Source: Streptomyces cadmiisoli (GTDB taxonomy: Bacteria > Actinomycetota > Actinomycetes > Streptomycetales > Streptomycetaceae). Taken from it: DNA of 64,000 nucleotides. Positions 20,274 through 29,598 of this stretch are shown here, piece by piece; within the stretch, counting starts at the first letter, position 1, and every line of letters begins with the position of its first letter. The position numbers and the translations under genes are program-made. The stretch lies in NCBI RefSeq assembly GCF_003261055.1, contig NZ_CP030073.1:6262001-6326000 (forward strand), given 5' to 3'. The notes under the pieces are model-generated. The model did no database searches. It was not told the DNA's origin and saw only the letters and a program-made list of their open reading frames with translations.

Positions 20274-21818
20274 TCAGCCCAGGTCGCCCGTGGCCGTCAA
20301 CTCGGCGAGCCGCACCAGCGTCCGCACGGCCGACCCCGTGCCGCCCTTCGGCGTGTAGCCGAACGGCCCCTGCTCGTTGAAGGCGGGCCCCGCGATGTCG
20401 AGGTGCGCCCAGGTGATCCCCTCGCCGACGAACTCGCGCAGGAACAGGCCGGCGACCAGGCCGCCGCCCATCCGCTCGCCCATGTTCGCGATGTCGGCGG
20501 TGGCGGAGTCCATGCCCTTGCGCAGGTGCTCCGGCAGCGGCATCGGCCACGCGGCCTCGCCGACCTCCGCCGCCGCCTCGTACACCGCGGTGCGGAAGAC
20601 GTCGTCGTTGGCCATGACCCCGAAGGTGCGGCTGCCCAGCGCCATCATCATGGCGCCGGTCAGCGTCGCGACGTCCACGATCGCGTCCGGCTTCTCCTGG
20701 GACGCCGCCCACAGGGCGTCGGCCAGCACCAGCCGGCCCTCCGCGTCGGTGTTGAGCACCTCCACGGTCTTGCCGCTGTACATGCGCAGCACGTCGCCGG
20801 GCCGGGTCGCGGAGCCGGAGGGCATGTTCTCGGCCAGCGCCAGCCAGCCGGTGACGTTGACCTCCAGGCCGAGCCGGGCGGCGGCGACCACCGCGGCGAA
20901 GACCGCCGCGGCACCGCTCATGTCGCACTTCATCGTCTCGTTGTGGCCGGCCGGCTTCAGCGAGATGCCGCCGGAGTCGTAGGTGATGCCCTTGCCGACG
21001 AAGGCGAGGTTCTTCTTCGCCTTGGAGTGCGTGTACGACAGCTTCACCAGGCGGGGCGCGGCCGTGGAGCCGGAGCCGACGCCGAGGATGCCTCCGTAGC
21101 CGCCCTTGGCGAGCGCCTTCTCATCGAGCACCTGGACCTTGATGCCGTTCTCCTTGGCCGCGGCCTGGGCGATCGCGGCGAAGGACTCCGGGTTGAGGTC
21201 GTTGGGCGGCATGTTGATCAGGTCGCGGGCCCGGTTCAGCTCCTCGGACACCGCGGTGGCGCGCTCCGCGGCGGCCTTGTGCGCCTTGTCGCGGGGCTTG
21301 GCGCCGAGCAGGGCGGCCTCGGCGAGGGGGGCCTTGCTGTTCTTCCGGTCCTTGGCGGGGCCGTTGTCGGCCGTCCCCTTGTAGGTGGTGAAGGAGTACG
21401 CGCCGAGCAGCACGCCCTCGGCGATCGCGCCGACGGCGGCGGCGTCGGCCACCGGCAGGGCGAAGGCCGCCTTCTTCGAACCGGCCAGCGCGCGCGCCGC
21501 CGCGCCGGCCGCGCGGCGCAGGGCGTCCGCGTCGTACGCGTCCGCGTCGGCGTCCTTGTCGGGCCGCGCGCCCAGGCCCACCGCCACCACGAGCGGTGTC
21601 TTGAAGCCGGCCGGGGCGGGCAGCTTCGTCAGCTCTCCCTCGGCCCCGGAGGCACCGAGGGTTTCGAGGACGTCGGCCAGCCTGCCGTCGTAGGCCTTGT
21701 CCACGGCCTCCGCGCCCGGTGCGACGACCGGGCCCTTGTCGCCCTTGGAGACACCGATCACGATCGCGTCGGCCCGCAGGCCGGGCGCCGCGGCGGTGCT
21801 GAGAGTCAGAGCAGTCAC
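20274..21818 (-). CDS. pepA: Leucyl aminopeptidase (M17)
   Basis: A cytosolic di-metal exopeptidase of 514 residues. The C-terminal catalytic domain shows VGKGITYDSGGISLKP (metal-binding Lys/Asp), MKCDMSGAAAV and the NTDAEGRLVLADAL signature. The N-terminal macro-like domain opens MTALTLSTAAAPGLRADAIVIG. It is upstream of lpd on the same strand but separated by a strong terminator, and divergent from the polysaccharide deacetylase-like gene. Confidence 0.96.
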   Translation of the reverse strand: MTALTLSTAAAPGLRADAIVIGVSKGDKGPVVAPGAEAVDKAYDGRLADVLETLGASGAEGELTKLPAPAGFKTPLVVAVGLGARPDKDADADAYDADALRRAAGAAARALAGSKKAAFALPVADAAAVGAIAEGVLLGAYSFTTYKGTADNGPAKDRKNSKAPLAEAALLGAKPRDKAHKAAAERATAVSEELNRARDLINMPPNDLNPESFAAIAQAAAKENGIKVQVLDEKALAKGGYGGILGVGSGSTAAPRLVKLSYTHSKAKKNLAFVGKGITYDSGGISLKPAGHNETMKCDMSGAAAVFAAVVAAARLGLEVNVTGWLALAENMPSGSATRPGDVLRMYSGKTVEVLNTDAEGRLVLADALWAASQEKPDAIVDVATLTGAMMMALGSRTFGVMANDDVFRTAVYEAAAEVGEAAWPMPLPEHLRKGMDSATADIANMGERMGGGLVAGLFLREFVGEGITWAHLDIAGPAFNEQGPFGYTPKGGTGSAVRTLVRLAELTATGDLG

Positions 21819-22144: not shown

Positions 22145-24178
22145 ATGGCACCACGCGTGCGCAGATGGAGAGAGACGGCCGCCGTTCTGGCGGCCGCGGG
22201 ACTGATCACGCTGGGAGTCTCCGCACCCGGCGCGTCCGCGGCACCGCAGCCGCGGATCGACCTGAGGGTGCTGGTGGTGGACGACGGCGACGGCCCCGTC
22301 GGCGCCATCGCCGCCCAACTGCGGAGCACCGGCATCCCGTACACCACCGTCCGGCTCGACGACCCGAACCGCCCGACCGTCAACGCCGCCTTCCTGAGCG
22401 ACACGGTGGGCGGCACGCCCCGGGCCAGGTTCCAGGGCGTCGTGCTGCCCGACGAGGCCCCGTTCGGCGCGGGCTCGGCCGAGCAGACGGCGCTGGAGAA
22501 CTACGAGCGGACGTACGGCATTCCGCAGGTCGACGCCTACACCTGGGCCCACCCGGGAGTCGGCCTGGACTACACCAGCGAGGGCGGCTGGGCCGGCACC
22601 CTGGACGGCAGCCCGGCGGCGGTGACCGACGCCGGACGGGCGGGCCCCTTCGGATACCTCGACGGGGCGTTCGCCTTCGAGGACAACTCGCCCTCCGTAC
22701 AGGAGAGCTACGGCTACGCGGCCCGCCCGCGCGCCGGTTTCACCAGCTACGTGGACGTCGCCGTGCCCGGCGGGACCGGGCGCGGCAGCCTGGTCGGGGA
22801 GTACGCGCACGACGGCCGCCGCGAGCTCGTCGTGACCTTCGCCTACAACCAGCACCAGCAGCAGTTCCGGGTCCTCGCCCGCGGCATCGTGGAGTGGCTG
22901 ACCCAGGGCGTCCACCTGGGCTTCGACCGCAACTACTTCGCCGTGCACGTCGACGACGTCTTCGCGCCCGACAGCCGCTGGGACACCGAACGCGACTGCA
23001 CCCCGGGCGACTTCGACTGCGCGGACGGCGACGGCGCCGGCACCACGCCGATCCGGATGACCGCCGCCGACGCCCAGTACGCCGCCGGGTGGCAGCGGCA
23101 GCACGGCTTCACGCTCGACATGGTCTACAACGCCGGCTCGGGCGAGGAGTGGAAGGCGGAGCACGGCGGCACGGACGCGCTCACCACGCGGCTGCTCGCC
23201 GACCGGGCCCAGTACCGCTGGATCAACCACACCTACACGCACCCGTACCTGGGCTGCGTGCAGGACACCTCCACCGTGCCGTGGGCCTGTGCCCGCAACG
23301 CGGACGGCACGATCCGCTGGACGAGCCGCGCCGAGATCTCCGAGCAGATCCGCGACAACCACAACTGGGGTGTCGCCCGCGGCCTCCCGGTGGACCGCAC
23401 CGAACTCGTCACCGGCGAGCACTCCGGCCTGCGGACCCTGCCCCAGCAGCCCGAGGACAACCCGAACCTCGCGCGCGCCCTCGCCGACAACGGCGTCGCC
23501 TGGGTCGCATCCGACAACTCCCGCGAGCCGCAGCAGCGCCCCGTCGGCTCCGCGTCGACCGTGCCCCGGCACCCGATGAACGTGTACTACAACGTCGGGA
23601 CGGCCGAGGAGATGGCCGACGAGTACAACCACATCTACACCTCGCGGGCCGACGGCGGCAGCGGCGTCTGCGAGACCAACCCGGCCTCCACCTGCCTGGA
23701 CGAACCGCTGGACCCGGCCACGGGCTACGCCTCCCACATCGTCCCGCAGGAGGCCCGCACCGCGCTCGGTCACGCCCTGAACAACGACCCGCGCCCGCAC
23801 TACGCCCACCAGTCCAACCTCGCCGAGGACCGGCTGCTCTACCCGGTCATGGAGAAGGTGCTCGCCGACTACCGGGCCCTGTTCGCCGACAACACCCCGG
23901 TGGAGAACCTGAGCCAGAAGGCCATCGGCACCGAGCTCCAGCGCCGCGCCGCCTGGCAGACCGCCCTGGACCAGGGCCGGGTCACCGCCTACCGGACGGG
24001 CAGCACCGTCACCGTCACCGCCCCGAGCGGCGTACAGGTGCCGGTGAGCGTGCCGGAGGGCACCCGCAAGCAACTCCTGCTGGGCACCGCGGCGTTCGGA
24101 ACGGCGTACGCGGGGGAGCGGTCGGCCTGGACCAAGCCCGAGCTGCTCCAGAGCGCCGTCACGCTGAGACTGCCGTGA
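22145..24178 (+). CDS. Secreted polysaccharide deacetylase-like protein (Agd3/CE18-like; PelA-deacetylase counterpart)
   Basis: 677 residues with a Sec signal peptide (basic MAPRVRRWRE, hydrophobic core 11-28, ASAAP cleavage region near 31-33) and no anchor. An N-terminal domain (35-250) precedes a NodB-like deacetylase core with the metal site split as HVDD (268-271) and HTYTH (362-366), the DD and HxxxH motifs of carbohydrate esterase deacetylases. Four to six cysteines nearby (C285, C292, C371, C382) suggest disulfides. The arrangement resembles the fungal galactosaminogalactan deacetylase Agd3, and the downstream genes match that pathway. Function is inferred. It is separated from the next gene by 121 bp that contain a hairpin. 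Confidence 0.72.
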   Translation: MAPRVRRWRETAAVLAAAGLITLGVSAPGASAAPQPRIDLRVLVVDDGDGPVGAIAAQLRSTGIPYTTVRLDDPNRPTVNAAFLSDTVGGTPRARFQGVVLPDEAPFGAGSAEQTALENYERTYGIPQVDAYTWAHPGVGLDYTSEGGWAGTLDGSPAAVTDAGRAGPFGYLDGAFAFEDNSPSVQESYGYAARPRAGFTSYVDVAVPGGTGRGSLVGEYAHDGRRELVVTFAYNQHQQQFRVLARGIVEWLTQGVHLGFDRNYFAVHVDDVFAPDSRWDTERDCTPGDFDCADGDGAGTTPIRMTAADAQYAAGWQRQHGFTLDMVYNAGSGEEWKAEHGGTDALTTRLLADRAQYRWINHTYTHPYLGCVQDTSTVPWACARNADGTIRWTSRAEISEQIRDNHNWGVARGLPVDRTELVTGEHSGLRTLPQQPEDNPNLARALADNGVAWVASDNSREPQQRPVGSASTVPRHPMNVYYNVGTAEEMADEYNHIYTSRADGGSGVCETNPASTCLDEPLDPATGYASHIVPQEARTALGHALNNDPRPHYAHQSNLAEDRLLYPVMEKVLADYRALFADNTPVENLSQKAIGTELQRRAAWQTALDQGRVTAYRTGSTVTVTAPSGVQVPVSVPEGTRKQLLLGTAAFGTAYAGERSAWTKPELLQSAVTLRLP

Positions 24179-24209
24179 CGACGCCCGCGTAGCGCGGCGC
24201 ACCGCGACA

Positions 24210-24250
24210 CCGGACGCACCCCGGACTTCGACCGGCCGGGGTGCGTCCGG
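24210..24250. terminator. Hairpin between deacetylase-like gene and pelF-like gene
   Basis: A perfect 15-bp stem (CCGGACGCACCCCGG / CCGGGGTGCGTCCGG) with an 11-nt loop, 50 bp ahead of the next start codon. It may end the first transcript or attenuate expression of the four-gene block that follows. Confidence 0.7.
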
Positions 24251-24299
24251 TCCGGGCCGCAGGGCCGACGAAGGACGTTCCGCAGGGGGGAAACCACGC

Positions 24300-25847
24300 A
24301 TGAGGCGTACCGGCCGTCATGTCACCATGCTCACCGAAGGCACCTATCCGCATGTCCACGGCGGGGTCAGCACCTGGTGCGACCAACTCGTCCAGGGCAT
24401 GCCGGAGGTCGGCTTCCAGGTCGTCTCGCTCACCGGCAGCGGCCGCGAGCCGGTCACCTGGGAGCTGCCGCCCAACGTCTACCGGCACACCCCGGTGCCC
24501 ACCTGGGGCCCGCGGCCCGGCCACGCGCGGGCACCGTACGGCAGGGCACGGCGCCGGTTCACCGACTCCTACGAGCGGCTGCTGCTGTCCTTCCTGGACC
24601 CCGAGTCGCGCTGCGACTTCGGTACGGCCCTCTACGAACTGGCCGAACTGGCCCGCGCCGGGCGGCTGTCGGCGGCCCTGCGCACCGAGTCCGCGCTGCG
24701 GTCGCTGATGTGGATCTGGACGATGCCGCATCTGCCGACCGCCGCCGCCGGACCCACCGTCCACGACGCGCTGACCGCGACCGACCTGCTGGAGCACGCC
24801 CTGCGGCCGCTCGGCGTCCGGATCCCCGAGGACAGCGTGGCGCACGCCGTCAGCAGCGGCCTGGCGACGCTGCCCGCCCTCGCCGCGCGCCGCCTGGACG
24901 GGGTGCCGTTCCTCCTCACCGAGCACGGCATCTACCTGCGCGAGCGCTATCTCGGCTACCGGCGCGACGCCCAGCGCTGGCCGGTGAAGGCGTTCATGCT
25001 CGGCTTCTACCGCGAACTGAACTCGCTCGGCTACCGCGCCGCCGACCTGATCACCCCGTGCAACGAGTACAACCGGCGCTGGGAGGAGCGCGGCGGCGCC
25101 GACGCGCACCGGATCCGCACCGTGTACAACGGCGTCGACCCCGCCGCCTTCCCGCACGCCGGCCCCGAACCCGACACCCCCACCCTGACCTGGTGCGGCC
25201 GCGTCGACCCGATCAAGGACCTGGAGACCCTGATCCACGCCTACGCCGCCGTCCGCGCCGAGCTGCCGGAGACCAGGCTGCGCCTGTTCGGCCCGGTGCC
25301 GCCCGGCGGTGAGGCGTACCGGACCCGGCTGGAGAAGCTCGCCGCGGAGCTGGGCGTCACCGACGGCCTCAGCTTCGAGGGCCGGATCAGCGAGGTGTGG
25401 CGGGCCTACGCCGCCGGGCACGTGGTGATGCTGTCGTCCATCTCCGAGGGCTTCCCGTTCTCCATCATCGAGGCCATGTCCTGCGGCCGTACGACGGTGT
25501 CGACCGACGTCGGGGGAGTGCGCGAGGCGGTCGGCGACACGGGACTCGTGGTGCCCCCGCGCGAGCCGGAGATGATGGCCGCCGCGGCGCTGACCCTGCT
25601 CAAGGACGACACGCGGCGGCTGAGGCTGGGCGAGATGAGCCGCCAGCGGGTCATCGACCGCTTCACCCTGCGCCGCTCGGTGGACGCCTTCCGCACGATC
25701 TACCAGGAACTCGCGGGCCTGCCCGAGGTGTACGAGCCCACGGTCGAGACGGTCGCCGACTGGACCCTCGAACTGCGCGACCCCTGGTACGGGGCCGCCG
25801 CCTGGGGCTCCGCCCGCACCGGGCCCGAGAACGGCGCCGGCCGGTGA
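24300..25847 (+). CDS. pelF: PelF-type GT4 glycosyltransferase
   Basis: 515 residues. The N-terminus HVTMLTEGTYPHVHGGVSTW is the PelF/DUF3492 signature (sugar acceptor side). The C-terminal half is a GT-B donor domain with LTWCGRVDPIKDLETLIHA and the retaining-GT4 EX7E motif at E383-E391 (EGFPFSIIE). PelF of Pseudomonas uses UDP-GalNAc to build the Pel polymer, and fungal Gtb3 has an equivalent domain. It starts the four-gene overlapping block, and its stop overlaps the next GTG in GTGA. GGGGGGA lies upstream of the ATG. Confidence 0.88.
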   Translation: MRRTGRHVTMLTEGTYPHVHGGVSTWCDQLVQGMPEVGFQVVSLTGSGREPVTWELPPNVYRHTPVPTWGPRPGHARAPYGRARRRFTDSYERLLLSFLDPESRCDFGTALYELAELARAGRLSAALRTESALRSLMWIWTMPHLPTAAAGPTVHDALTATDLLEHALRPLGVRIPEDSVAHAVSSGLATLPALAARRLDGVPFLLTEHGIYLRERYLGYRRDAQRWPVKAFMLGFYRELNSLGYRAADLITPCNEYNRRWEERGGADAHRIRTVYNGVDPAAFPHAGPEPDTPTLTWCGRVDPIKDLETLIHAYAAVRAELPETRLRLFGPVPPGGEAYRTRLEKLAAELGVTDGLSFEGRISEVWRAYAAGHVVMLSSISEGFPFSIIEAMSCGRTTVSTDVGGVREAVGDTGLVVPPREPEMMAAAALTLLKDDTRRLRLGEMSRQRVIDRFTLRRSVDAFRTIYQELAGLPEVYEPTVETVADWTLELRDPWYGAAAWGSARTGPENGAGR

Positions 25848-27358
25848 GCGGCAGCGTCTGGCTGCCTCCCGGCGCCCGCCCCGACTCCCTGCCCGCGATC
25901 CCCCGGCAGCGCACCCCGAGCTGGGCGCAGCCCGACCCGATCGACGAACTCGCCGTACGCCTCGACGACTTCATAGCCGCCGCCGTCCACCCCGACGAGA
26001 TCGCCGCGCTGCTGGAGTCGGACGGCCTGTCGGACGACCGGATACGCGAGCGCTACGGAGTGAAGAACTCCTTCGCTCTCGCCGAGGAGCTGTACGAACG
26101 CGTCGACCGCCGCTATCCCGAACCCGAGGACCTCCCGCACGACCCCTGGCGGATCGGTCTGCTGGCCTGTCTGCTGCGCGGTGTCGTCTTCGTGCTGCCC
26201 GGCTTCGCCCACCTCCTCGGCGCGCCCCTCCTCGCCGGTCCGCGGGGCGACCTCGGCCTCCCGGCCGGCACCGTCCCCCTGCTGGCCGGCGCCCTCACCG
26301 GGTGGGCCTGGAACCAAGGGCTCGCGCACCGCGCGTACGCGTGGCTGGGCCTCGGCGACCGCTCGTCCGCCCGCCGCTGCCTGCTGCTGGGCGCCCCGGT
26401 CGGCGCGCTCCTCGGCGCCCTGGCCGCGCTCGCCGTCGCGGGCACCGCTCAGCCGGCCGCCGTCGCCTTCGCCGCCGGCCAGTCCTGCTACCTCGGCGCG
26501 TCCACCACGCTGCTCGTGCTGGGCCGCGAACGGGCGCTGCTCGCCGCCCTGCTGCCGATGGCGGCGGGCACGCTGCCGACCCTGGTCCGGGACGTGCCCG
26601 AGTCCGCCCGGGTGCTGCTGCTGCTCGGTTCGCTGGCGGCGGTGGTGGTCCTCGCCCTGGTCGAAGTGGCCCCCGCGGTACGCGATCTGGGCCGGGGCTG
26701 CTGGACGGCGGGGCTGACGGCGCTGCTGCCGTTCGGCGCGCCCGGCGGCCGGCCGCCGGCGCCGGTGGGCGGACCACGGCTCGCCGCGTCCCTGCCGTAC
26801 GCGCTGTTCGGCCTGGCGAGCGGTGTCCTCGTGCTGTACGCGGCCCTCGGCGAGGTACTGGCCGGAGGAGAACTCAGCGCGATCGCCGCGCCCGCCGCCG
26901 TCGCCCTCACCCTGAGCATGGGCCCCGCCGAGTGGCTGCTGCACCGCTTCCGCAGCGACAGCCTCGCCGGACTGCGCTCCACCGGCAGCCCGCGCGCCTT
27001 CCGGCGGGCCACGGTCCGCACGCTCGCGGTGTGCCTCATCGGCTACCTGGCGGTCCTGCTCGCCCTCGCCCTGACCACGGCGGCCCTGTGGCCGCACACC
27101 CCGTCCCCGGACGGCTTCCGGCTGGCCGGGCTGCTGATGCTCGGCGTGGTCCTGTGGACGGGCCTGCTCCTCCAGTCGGTCGGCGCGGTCCTCGGCGGCG
27201 CGGCCATCTGCTGCGCCGCCGCGCTGGTCCAGACCCTGGCCCTCGTCACGCACACCGGTACCCCGCACATCGTGGGTCTCGTGGTGTACGGCGCGGCCGC
27301 CGCCGCCCAGGCCGTGCTGGTCTGCGGCCTGCTCGGAAGGGCCACGGCACACCGATGA
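25844..27358 (+). CDS. Polytopic membrane protein of the polysaccharide locus (PelG-like role?)
   Basis: 504 residues from the GTG at 25844, overlapping the preceding gene by 4 bp. A cytoplasmic N-terminal region (1-105; acidic and helical) is followed by about ten to twelve membrane segments rich in Leu/Ala/Val to the C-terminus. PelG, the Pel transporter-like partner of PelF, is also a multi-spanning protein, and fungal Gtb3 carries a multi-spanning region next to its GT4 domain. I therefore infer export of the polymer, but I see no signature motif that proves it. Confidence 0.7.
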   Translation: MSGSVWLPPGARPDSLPAIPRQRTPSWAQPDPIDELAVRLDDFIAAAVHPDEIAALLESDGLSDDRIRERYGVKNSFALAEELYERVDRRYPEPEDLPHDPWRIGLLACLLRGVVFVLPGFAHLLGAPLLAGPRGDLGLPAGTVPLLAGALTGWAWNQGLAHRAYAWLGLGDRSSARRCLLLGAPVGALLGALAALAVAGTAQPAAVAFAAGQSCYLGASTTLLVLGRERALLAALLPMAAGTLPTLVRDVPESARVLLLLGSLAAVVVLALVEVAPAVRDLGRGCWTAGLTALLPFGAPGGRPPAPVGGPRLAASLPYALFGLASGVLVLYAALGEVLAGGELSAIAAPAAVALTLSMGPAEWLLHRFRSDSLAGLRSTGSPRAFRRATVRTLAVCLIGYLAVLLALALTTAALWPHTPSPDGFRLAGLLMLGVVLWTGLLLQSVGAVLGGAAICCAAALVQTLALVTHTGTPHIVGLVVYGAAAAAQAVLVCGLLGRATAHR

Positions 27359-28002
27359 GCTCCCTGCTGGTCCCCTACTACGAGCACCCCGCGCACCGGC
27401 CCGCCGAATGGGACGCGATCGTGGCCGCCGCGCCCCGGCTGTACGGCGTCGTCCTCAATCCGGCCAGCGGCCCCGGCGACCGGCCCGACCCGGCCTTCGC
27501 CTCGCTCGCCGCCCGGCTGCGGGCGGCGGACGTCCGGGTGCTCGGCTACACCGACACCGGCTACGGCCGCCGCGCCCACGCCGAGGTCGTCCGCGATCTG
27601 ACCCGGCACAAAGAGTGGTACGGCGCGGACGGCGCCTTCCTCGACCAAGTCGCCTCCGGTCCGGCCGAGTTCGGCCACTACCAGCGGCTGGCGACGGCCG
27701 CCTGGGGCGCCGGCTGCGGCACGCTCGTCCTCAACCACGGCACGCACCCGCACCCCTGGTACGCCCGACTCGCCGATGTGCTGGTGACCTTCGAGGGCGA
27801 CTGGGAGACGTACCGCGCGCTGCCTTCGCATCCGCCGCCCGGCGCCGGGGCCCGGCTGTGCCACCTGGTGTACGGCGTACCGGCCGGCGCGGACGCGGCG
27901 GCGCTGGCCCGGACGCGGGGTGCGGCCGTCCATTGCGCGGTCCCGGGGGTGGGGGATCATCCCTGGGGCACGTTGCCGCACACCCTGGAGCCGCCCCGAT
28001 GA
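27355..28002 (+). CDS. Spherulin-4 family protein (GH135-like), without signal peptide
   Basis: 215 residues, translationally coupled by ATGA at both ends. LLVPYYEHPAHRPAEWDAI, LYGVVLNPASGPGDRPD, VLGYTDTGYGRR and GADGAFLDQV follow the spherulin-4/GH135 barrel pattern. Characterised fungal Sph3 (GH135) is an alpha-galactosaminogalactan hydrolase essential for polymer synthesis. Sites that I align with its acidic residues are D97, Q98 (normally Glu) and E147. Unlike Sph3 there is no signal peptide, so the protein appears cytoplasmic. The start is fixed by the 4-bp overlap. Confidence 0.75.
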   Translation: MSSLLVPYYEHPAHRPAEWDAIVAAAPRLYGVVLNPASGPGDRPDPAFASLAARLRAADVRVLGYTDTGYGRRAHAEVVRDLTRHKEWYGADGAFLDQVASGPAEFGHYQRLATAAWGAGCGTLVLNHGTHPHPWYARLADVLVTFEGDWETYRALPSHPPPGAGARLCHLVYGVPAGADAAALARTRGAAVHCAVPGVGDHPWGTLPHTLEPPR

Positions 28003-28808
28003 GACGTCCGGCGAAGTGGGCCGCCTCGCTCGCCGTCCCGCTGGCCCTGCTCGCGGGCTGCACGTCCGCCGCCCCCGAACGCGACCCCGCCGACGCGCGG
28101 GCGACCGGCAGGATCTGGCAGCCGCGCCCCGGCGCCGACTGGCAGTGGCAGCTCAGCGGCCGGGTCGACACCTCCGTCGACGTGCCCGTCTACGACATCG
28201 ACGGCTTCGACCAGAGCGAGCGGACCGTCGCGGAACTGCACGACCGGGGCCGCAAGGTCATCTGCTACCTGTCCACCGGCGCGTGGGAGGACTGGCGCCC
28301 GGACGCCGGCGAGTTCCCGGAGCGGGTCCTCGGCAAGGGCAACGGCTGGGACGGCGAACGCTGGCTCGACATCCGGCGGACCGACGTCCTCGAACCCCTC
28401 ATGGCGGCCCGGATCGACATGTGCGCCGACAAGGGCTTCGACGCCGTCGAACCCGACAACATGGACGGGTACCGCAACGACACCGGCTTCCCCCTCACGG
28501 CGGACGACCAGCTCCGCTACAACCGCCTGATCGCCGGACTCGCCCACGAACGGGGCATGTCGGTGGGCCTGAAGAACGACCTCGACCAGATTCCCCAACT
28601 GGTGGACGACTTCGACTTCGCCGTCAACGAGCAGTGCGCCCAGTACGACGAGTGCGGGTCGCTGACCCCGTTCATCGAGGCGGGCAAGGCGGTCTTCCAC
28701 GTCGAGTACGAACTGCCGACCGGCGACTTCTGCCCCGAGTCCCGCCGTCTGCGGCTGAGTTCGCTGCTGAAGAAGTACGAGCTGGGGGTGTGGCGCAGGG
28801 CGTGCTGA
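27999..28808 (+). CDS. GH114 family lipoprotein, putative endo-alpha-1,4-polygalactosaminidase
   Basis: 269 residues with a lipobox (LALLAGC, Cys21), so it is anchored outside the membrane. The TIM-barrel GH114 motifs are VPVYDIDGFD (about 62-71), KVICYLSTGAWEDWRPD and GFDAVEPDNMDGY (147-158), with E151 as the likely catalytic acid. Conserved VGLKNDLDQIP and FAVNEQCAQYDEC follow. Ega3 of Aspergillus and the hydrolase domain of PelA belong to this family and cut galactosamine-rich polymers. It is the last gene of the overlapping block and ends 7 bp from the convergent cobS stop. Confidence 0.88.
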   Translation: MRRPAKWAASLAVPLALLAGCTSAAPERDPADARATGRIWQPRPGADWQWQLSGRVDTSVDVPVYDIDGFDQSERTVAELHDRGRKVICYLSTGAWEDWRPDAGEFPERVLGKGNGWDGERWLDIRRTDVLEPLMAARIDMCADKGFDAVEPDNMDGYRNDTGFPLTADDQLRYNRLIAGLAHERGMSVGLKNDLDQIPQLVDDFDFAVNEQCAQYDECGSLTPFIEAGKAVFHVEYELPTGDFCPESRRLRLSSLLKKYELGVWRRAC

Positions 28809-28815
28809 GCCGGGC

Positions 28816-29598
28816 TCAGCCCAGTGCCGACACCACGAGCGCGGTCGTCGCCGCCGCCTCGGCGAGGCCGCCGAACACATCGCCGGTCACCCCGCCGAAC
28901 CGGCGCACGCAGTGGCGCAGCAGCAGTTCGGCGACCACGGCCGACGCGGCCACCGCGAGGGCGGCGCGGGCGACGTCGTACGGCCCGAGGAGCGCCCCGC
29001 ACAGTGCCGCGGCCGCGGTGACCGCGAGGGCGACCCCCAGCGCGCCGCGCACCGGGACCACCCCGGCGACGGCCGCCCCGAGGCCGTCCGGCCGGGCCGC
29101 CGGCACACCGCCGCGGGCGGCCAGTGTCAGCGCCAGCCGGGCGGCGGCCGCCGCGACGACGGCGGCCAGCGCGCCGCGCGCCCAGGAGGTGTCGTAGAGC
29201 TGCGCCAGGGCCGCGACTTGCGCGGCCAGGACGAGGACCAGGGTGATCACCCCGAACGGCCCGATGTCCGACTGCTTCATGATCCGCAGCGCGTCCTCGG
29301 CGGGTTTGCCGCTGCCCAGTCCGTCCGCGGTGTCGGCCAGTCCGTCCAGGTGCAGACCGCGGGTGAGGACGGCGGGCACCGCCACGCTCGCGACCGCGGC
29401 GAGCAGCGGGCCGGCGCCCAGCAGGAGCAGCAGCAGACCGGACCCCGCGGCGCAGACCCCGACGACCAGCCCGACGAGCGGCGCGCACAGCATCCCGCCC
29501 CGTGCCGCGCCCCGGTCCCAGCGGCTCACGGTGACGGGCAGGACGGTGAGCGTGCCGACGGCGAAGCGCAGGCCGTGCAGCGGAGGGATCTCGGACAT
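28816..29598 (-). CDS. cobS: Adenosylcobinamide-GDP ribazoletransferase (cobalamin synthase)
   Basis: CobS joins adenosylcobinamide-GDP to alpha-ribazole in the membrane, the last assembly step of the nucleotide loop. 260 residues with about six membrane segments; family motifs are LHGLRFAVGTLTVLPV, RGLHLDGLADTADGL and SDIGPFGVITL. Its partners cobT and cobU lie 1-4 kb downstream on the same strand, though separated by other genes. Confidence 0.95.
   Translation of the reverse strand: MSEIPPLHGLRFAVGTLTVLPVTVSRWDRGAARGGMLCAPLVGLVVGVCAAGSGLLLLLLGAGPLLAAVASVAVPAVLTRGLHLDGLADTADGLGSGKPAEDALRIMKQSDIGPFGVITLVLVLAAQVAALAQLYDTSWARGALAAVVAAAAARLALTLAARGGVPAARPDGLGAAVAGVVPVRGALGVALAVTAAAALCGALLGPYDVARAALAVAASAVVAELLLRHCVRRFGGVTGDVFGGLAEAAATTALVVSALG

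Follow-up and report, generated by a model that had tools for sequence, protein, structure and literature searches.

A locus of five genes, here called A to E, on a 64,000-nucleotide stretch of the Streptomyces cadmiisoli chromosome (assembly GCF_003261055.1, contig NZ_CP030073.1, positions 6,262,001 to 6,326,000 of the forward strand; hereafter the window) probably makes and finishes a cationic surface exopolysaccharide resembling Pel and fungal galactosaminogalactan (GAG). Its enzymes correspond to those with which fungi and some bacteria produce a sticky, partly deacetylated polymer of galactosamine type. As far as sequence comparison can tell, such a GAG/Pel-like reading is well supported for the protein families and for the gene order. 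The list of open reading frames (ORFs) confirmed all five genes, running in one direction, where a preliminary description of this DNA had placed them:

22145..24178, plus strand: gene A, predicted secreted Agd3/CE18-type polysaccharide N-deacetylase, 677 amino acids (aa)
22946..22957, plus strand: HVDD motif in A (D270, D271)
23228..23242, plus strand: HTYTH motif in A (H362, H366)
24209..24251, plus strand: perfect 16-nucleotide (nt) inverted repeat with an 11-nt loop in the A-B gap, a terminator-like hairpin without a T run
24300..25847, plus strand: gene B, PelF-type GT4 glycosyltransferase (DUF3492 plus GT4), 515 aa
25844..27358, plus strand: gene C, predicted 12-helix exporter of MOP-superfamily fold, 504 aa, whose GTG start at 25844 overlaps the B stop
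27355..28002, plus strand: gene D, GH135/spherulin-4 protein without signal peptide, 215 aa, whose start overlaps the C stop
27999..28808, plus strand: gene E, GH114 endo-alpha-1,4-galactosaminidase-like lipoprotein, 269 aa, whose start overlaps the D stop
20274-21818, minus strand: flanking pepA (name from a reading of the ORF)
28816-29598, minus strand: flanking cobS (name from a reading of the ORF)

We propose that B would polymerise an alpha-linked N-acetylhexosamine in the cytosol, most likely from UDP-GalNAc and with alpha-1,4 linkage, and that its partner C, a MOP-type exporter, would move the chain across the single membrane. Outside, the secreted A would strip acetyl groups to give a cationic chain and the lipid-anchored E would cut its deacetylated stretches, while D, predicted to be cytosolic, may trim or edit the acetylated chain prior to export or in the course of it. 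The protein families, the export signals, the coupling of the genes and their conserved order come from the sequence or from models of it; the monomer, its linkage, the order of steps and a role in hyphal adhesion are what we infer. Of the earlier proposal that the locus makes, trims and partly deacetylates a galactosamine-type polymer, the enzyme assignments and the reading as a polymer locus stand, and the galactosamine composition is presumed.

Protein families of the locus

A had been described as a secreted deacetylase-like protein with HVDD and HTYTH motifs. Both motifs are present, the N-terminus reads as a signal-peptide-like stretch, and the predicted structure has the Agd3 fold over its whole length, with Agd3 as the top match in the PDB (Foldseek E 4e-27) and PelA as a weaker one (E 1.5e-7). 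By sequence, A matched no PDB chain. In an alignment of A and its relatives (A1), all 13 members, the window's included, matched the Pfam model Agd3_CE (best 9.2e-7) and six matched CBM87_Agd3; D270, D271, H362, H366, R460, R465, H552 and H555 were invariant throughout. The DD, HxxxH, Arg and His motifs of CE18 can all be found in A, with more than one candidate each for Agd3 R613 and H668. D377 of Agd3 is the catalytic base and D378 a metal ligand (Bamford et al. 2020, PMC7229062; here and below, papers are cited from excerpts). From the sequence, D270/D271 of A are likely equivalent to these two residues, and H362/H366 likely to the Agd3 metal ligands H510/H514.

The designation of B as a PelF-type GT4 was borne out by matches to DUF3492 (192 bits) and to the NCBIfam PelF equivalog model (167.3 bits, cut-off 100). 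C, previously just a polytopic membrane protein, matched no Pfam family; its predicted model shows 12 helices in a MOP-superfamily fold at residues 100-504, preceded by a helical N-terminal domain at about 30-95. None of 20 C proteins matched the PelG model PF16933 at E up to 10, and faint matches came from C relatives only (L059 with 20.6 bits at a cut-off of 29, and one of 12 fused proteins with E 0.0062). Assignment of C as an acyltransferase, to which one of 20 members pointed at E 0.009, was rejected as chance.

A C-like domain stands behind a PelF-type GT4 in a single chain in 16 database proteins (E 5e-82 to 5e-9, computed in a set of 137 proteins), two of which come with an organism name. 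Four of these fusions (P0018, P0026, P0028, P0031; 974-994 aa) span nearly the whole C model, nine distant ones (P0123-P0131; 1043-1082 aa) cover 286-463 of its 479 positions, and three (P0005, P0030, P0033) are partial. Fusion is not the rule, as B and C shared a frame in none of the 78 loci with C from the named-genome scan described below. Two PelF-type GT4 proteins (P0121, P0122) also bear an FHA domain.

The putative hydrolases D and E, earlier called a spherulin-4/GH135-like protein and a GH114 lipoprotein, kept these names: D scored 97 bits with the Spherulin4 profile (cut-off 30.2) and E 304 bits with GH114 (cut-off 27). Besides, E matched the Ega3 structure 6oj1 (E 3e-60), carries a lipobox at C21 as read from the sequence, and has D153 and E211 invariant in 14/14 sequences. 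With the ATG that overlaps the C stop as its start, D lacks a signal peptide; its frame is open further upstream inside C, and the starts of D relatives were picked by script to fit, so they are no independent test of the D start. D97 is kept in 20/20 and E147 in 19/20 D relatives. In Sph3, E167 is a needed residue; its likely position is taken by Q98 in D and by Gln in 18 of the 20 relatives. Two further spherulin-4 genes lie in the same genome, one of which has a signal peptide and, unlike D with its Gln, retains FFDE; a second GH114 gene is likewise found elsewhere.

Gene coupling

The B/C, C/D and D/E junctions are overlaps of four bases each. The A-B gap measures 121 bases and contains the perfect 16-nt hairpin, around which a 71-nt stretch folds with -47.4 kcal/mol (z -3.9); an inverted repeat was present in two of eight A-B gaps tested, the window's included. 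Given this hairpin, A may be transcribed separately from B-C-D-E.

A degradative locus, whose secreted A and E would attack galactosamine polymers of soil fungi or other bacteria, could likewise hold a secreted-looking deacetylase and a hydrolytic lipoprotein, and the additional spherulin-4 and GH114 genes of the genome are in line with it, as is the reported secretion of an endogalactosaminidase by Streptomyces griseus (cited in PMC7229062 and PMC12054363). However, the four-base overlaps tie D and E to a polymerase and an exporter, D lacks a signal peptide, a Pfam family search found no uptake or sugar-catabolism gene among the five, and A, B and C occurred together in all 20 larger loci considered below (selected by their C match). 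We therefore hold a degradative role to be highly improbable.

Conservation of the locus

Among 101 same-genus genomes, C was found in 54 (in G005, G026, G069 and G073 only with matches weaker than ~1e-12) and A in 53. C lay within 6 kb of 57 of 64 A places, a count in which pieces of one broken gene are separate places, and four of the seven A places without a nearby C belonged to assemblies broken into 320 to 1300 contigs. At the C places with the 30 best matches, the window's among them, D was present in 29 and E in 22 within the 1.5 kb fetched; in the 20 larger loci, next to the constant A, B and C, D was found in 18 and E in 12. Ten of these 20 were of the window's type (type 1), with pepA called upstream in eight, nine followed the order A-B-C-Leg-NT-SDR-D, with or without E (type 2), and L053 was distant. 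In L064 (genome G016), A is the only gene of the set that lies between pepA and cobS, which looks like a deletion of B-E. The window's own genome holds a second locus (L054, G000:C1:3446000-3464000) with a PelF-like gene (44 percent), a C-like gene, an SDR gene and a spherulin-4 gene with Ser at a position where relatives of D have a conserved Glu; neither A nor E was matched inside it.

Across 396 Actinomycetota genomes, weak matches included, A was matched in 13 and C in 20. When named genomes were scanned with the fused-protein alignment as query, the best 80 of 580 relatives included A in 77, C in 78, D in 71 and E in 58 (counted from -5 to +9 kb around B, or less at contig ends). The commonest order was A-B-C-Leg-NT-SDR-D-E (49/80), with A-B-C-D-E in 5/80, proportions that are not frequencies, because type 2 loci were ranked preferentially. 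Among the hosts are Amycolatopsis, Lentzea, Kutzneria, Actinomadura, Kitasatospora and Actinoplanes. Since the same gene order comes back both within the genus and in further actinobacterial families, the association goes beyond chance, and the expectation that these genes stay together held up.

Several variants were seen. The distant A-B-C loci L053 and L056 carry a nucleotide-sugar dehydrogenase, NT and SDR, and are perhaps a uronic-acid variant. In L060, A-B-C are consecutive and a GH114 gene points towards them; L213 keeps the order A, B, D, E and has an interval at the place of C, in which no C was detected; and in L058 (G388) an A gene fragmented over several frames lies beside B, C and E, through decay or assembly error. 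G140 and G111 (L215, L216) combine a PelF-type glycosyltransferase, PelG and a CE18-type deacetylase with a GH135 gene on the opposite strand (in G140, PelG 475 bits and Agd3_CE 85.8 bits), so CE18 and GH135 accompany the PelF-PelG pair too. Two genes before PelF in G140 encode GAF-GGDEF and HEAT/TPR proteins, which we read as PelD and PelE.

Nature of the monomer

The same machinery might act on another amino sugar, e.g. a 6-deoxy N-acetylhexosamine such as FucNAc, with type 2 loci supplying their own nucleotide sugar and type 1 loci, the window's included, using another supply. Leg, NT and SDR were all present near B and C in 70 of the best 80 of 580 loci, Leg reached 453.7 bits with the LegB dehydratase model (cut-off 475) and carries TSE and YxxxK motifs, and G080 and G067 each hold both locus types. 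Yet the closest matches in the window genome were only 33 percent (Leg, 120 bits) and 37 percent (NT, 146 bits) identical, so that the module seemingly does not serve the window locus; those relatives of A, D and E that have been characterised work on GalNAc/GalN polymers; and the query by which the 80 loci were ranked was itself type 2-like. We thus regard another monomer as unlikely.

In a tree of 61 of the 96 A proteins, 15 same-family type 1 rows formed one group (SH-aLRT 85, not strong) standing beside 27 type 2 rows (94). Any locus with an NT gene counted as type 2, a rule that calls L098 (cut by a contig end) type 1 and L053 and L056 type 2, labels to be discounted; the type label has to change four times, in part owing to truncated or distant rows. 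This fits a loss of the Leg-NT-SDR module without proving it. A broader and still rather doubtful idea is that Actinobacteria share a family of PelF-plus-MOP-exporter polymers with differing monomers, in which type 2 would yield a 6-deoxy GAG/Pel analogue, e.g. poly-fucosamine, the type 1 lineage would have lost the nucleotide-sugar module and make a GalNAc polymer, and strains with both would make two related polycations.

On the other hand, several observations weigh against a galactosamine-type polymer locus as we propose it. The match of A to a CE18 profile, expected from the preliminary description, came from every member of its alignment but was below the cut-off for A alone (16.8 bits and E 0.0035 at a cut-off of 27.6); of the five structure models of A, four reached a mean pLDDT of only 58-64, versus 77 for the one kept. 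The Foldseek evidence for C is modest taken alone (best E 4.5e-4, TM about 0.4), and its identification with PelG by sequence was rejected, with no PF16933 match and a null hhalign comparison to a two-sequence PelG alignment. Besides, no UDP-sugar 4-epimerase (uge3-like) gene is among the five, 47 of the 101 same-genus genomes had no C match, and the LegB-like 4,6-dehydratase of the sister type 2 loci means that the monomer may not be GalNAc family-wide.

If the proposed polymer is made, about half of the sampled Streptomyces genomes and other filamentous actinobacteria could produce a polycationic galactosamine-type matrix, as moulds and Pseudomonas do, with a bearing on hyphal adhesion and on pellet formation in fermentation. 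It would also bear on the S. griseus galactosaminidase, reported to be without a sequence (PMC12054363), and on the suggestion that the fungal GAG cluster came from bacteria. What determines the monomer could readily be approached by comparing the two locus types.

Comparison with known systems

The fungal cluster, uge3-sph3-ega3-agd3-gtb3 (PMC4817252, PMC11356417, PMC8647848), shares with the window locus a deacetylase, GH135, GH114 and a glycosyltransferase with a membrane region, and the B-C fusions may recall the one-protein synthase Gtb3, described as a putative transmembrane glycosyltransferase (PMC4817252). It differs in its epimerase, in a transmembrane segment near the N-terminus of Sph3, which D lacks, and in Ega3, which is not sister to E. 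In a midpoint-rooted GH114 tree whose bacterial rows are Actinomycetota only, the 16 fungal rows (of 120 listed) formed one clade (100/100); the bacterial row closest to it, L162 (98/90), belongs to another actinobacterial family and not to the Streptomyces E genes. L163, which is the E of the window itself, stands in for the window row, removed as a duplicate; L163 and some other same-genus rows bear the label 'other', to be discounted. Within these actinobacterial rows, the tree thus speaks against grouping fungal Ega3 with the Streptomyces genes and leaves the idea of the window locus as a near relative of the donor to fungi unsupported. Searches for Gtb3 gave no fungal-named protein among the best 120 of 614 matches, nor among the 23 of a second search, most rows being nameless and about 8000 candidates scored each time. 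The suggestion that the locus is closer to the fungal set than to Pel is supported: A is nearer to Agd3 than to PelA, GH135 and GH114 are both present, pelD and pelE are absent from the five genes, and B-C fusions exist. The preliminary interpretation as a whole is upheld in part, the missing epimerase and the Ega3 grouping being among the points that do not bear it out.

PelA itself carries a GH166 hydrolase (PMC12054363), which corrects the earlier statement that it joins GH114 to the deacetylase. The Gram-positive Pel operon, pelDEADAFG (PMC7112168), resembles the window locus in a PelF-type glycosyltransferase, a membrane exporter and a separate deacetylase; it differs in pelD and pelE, neither of which is among the five genes, in the CE18 type of the window deacetylase, in the presence of GH114 and GH135, and in that the PelG model finds no match in C. 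A genome-wide PelD_GGDEF search gave no match, but its controls were silent too and it is uninformative; for PelG, the window genome gave one partial match elsewhere (28.1 bits, under the cut-off). With MOP exporters (MATE, WzxE, MurJ), C shares the predicted fold; it differs in having no sequence-family match, in its extra N-terminal domain and in its pairing with a GT4.

Closest are the bacterial agd3 operons. Homologues of agd3 were reported in 45 bacterial species, which may include the window species or a near one, and in 30 of 35 tree species the gene lies within or close to operons of carbohydrate-active enzymes, each of which includes a glycosyltransferase and a polytopic membrane protein, GH114 being highly consistent and spherulin-4 present in some Actinobacteria; the paper supports a transfer to fungi (PMC7229062). 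The window locus shares the CE18-type deacetylase, the cytoplasmic glycosyltransferase, the polytopic membrane protein, GH114 and the spherulin-4 gene of those Actinobacteria; the exporter fold, the Leg-NT-SDR type and a D without signal peptide are absent from the excerpted account. The idea has thus been in print in outline since 2020, and the supposed lack of an experimental description holds in that no experimental Streptomyces study was found among the matches listed from open-licence papers. To this general finding our analysis adds four things, with no literature search aimed at each of them: the assignment of C as an exporter, the B-C fusions, the Leg-NT-SDR module of type 2 and the loci that combine PelF, PelG and CE18. 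The comparison of many loci reveals variants, some of which have extra sugar-making genes.
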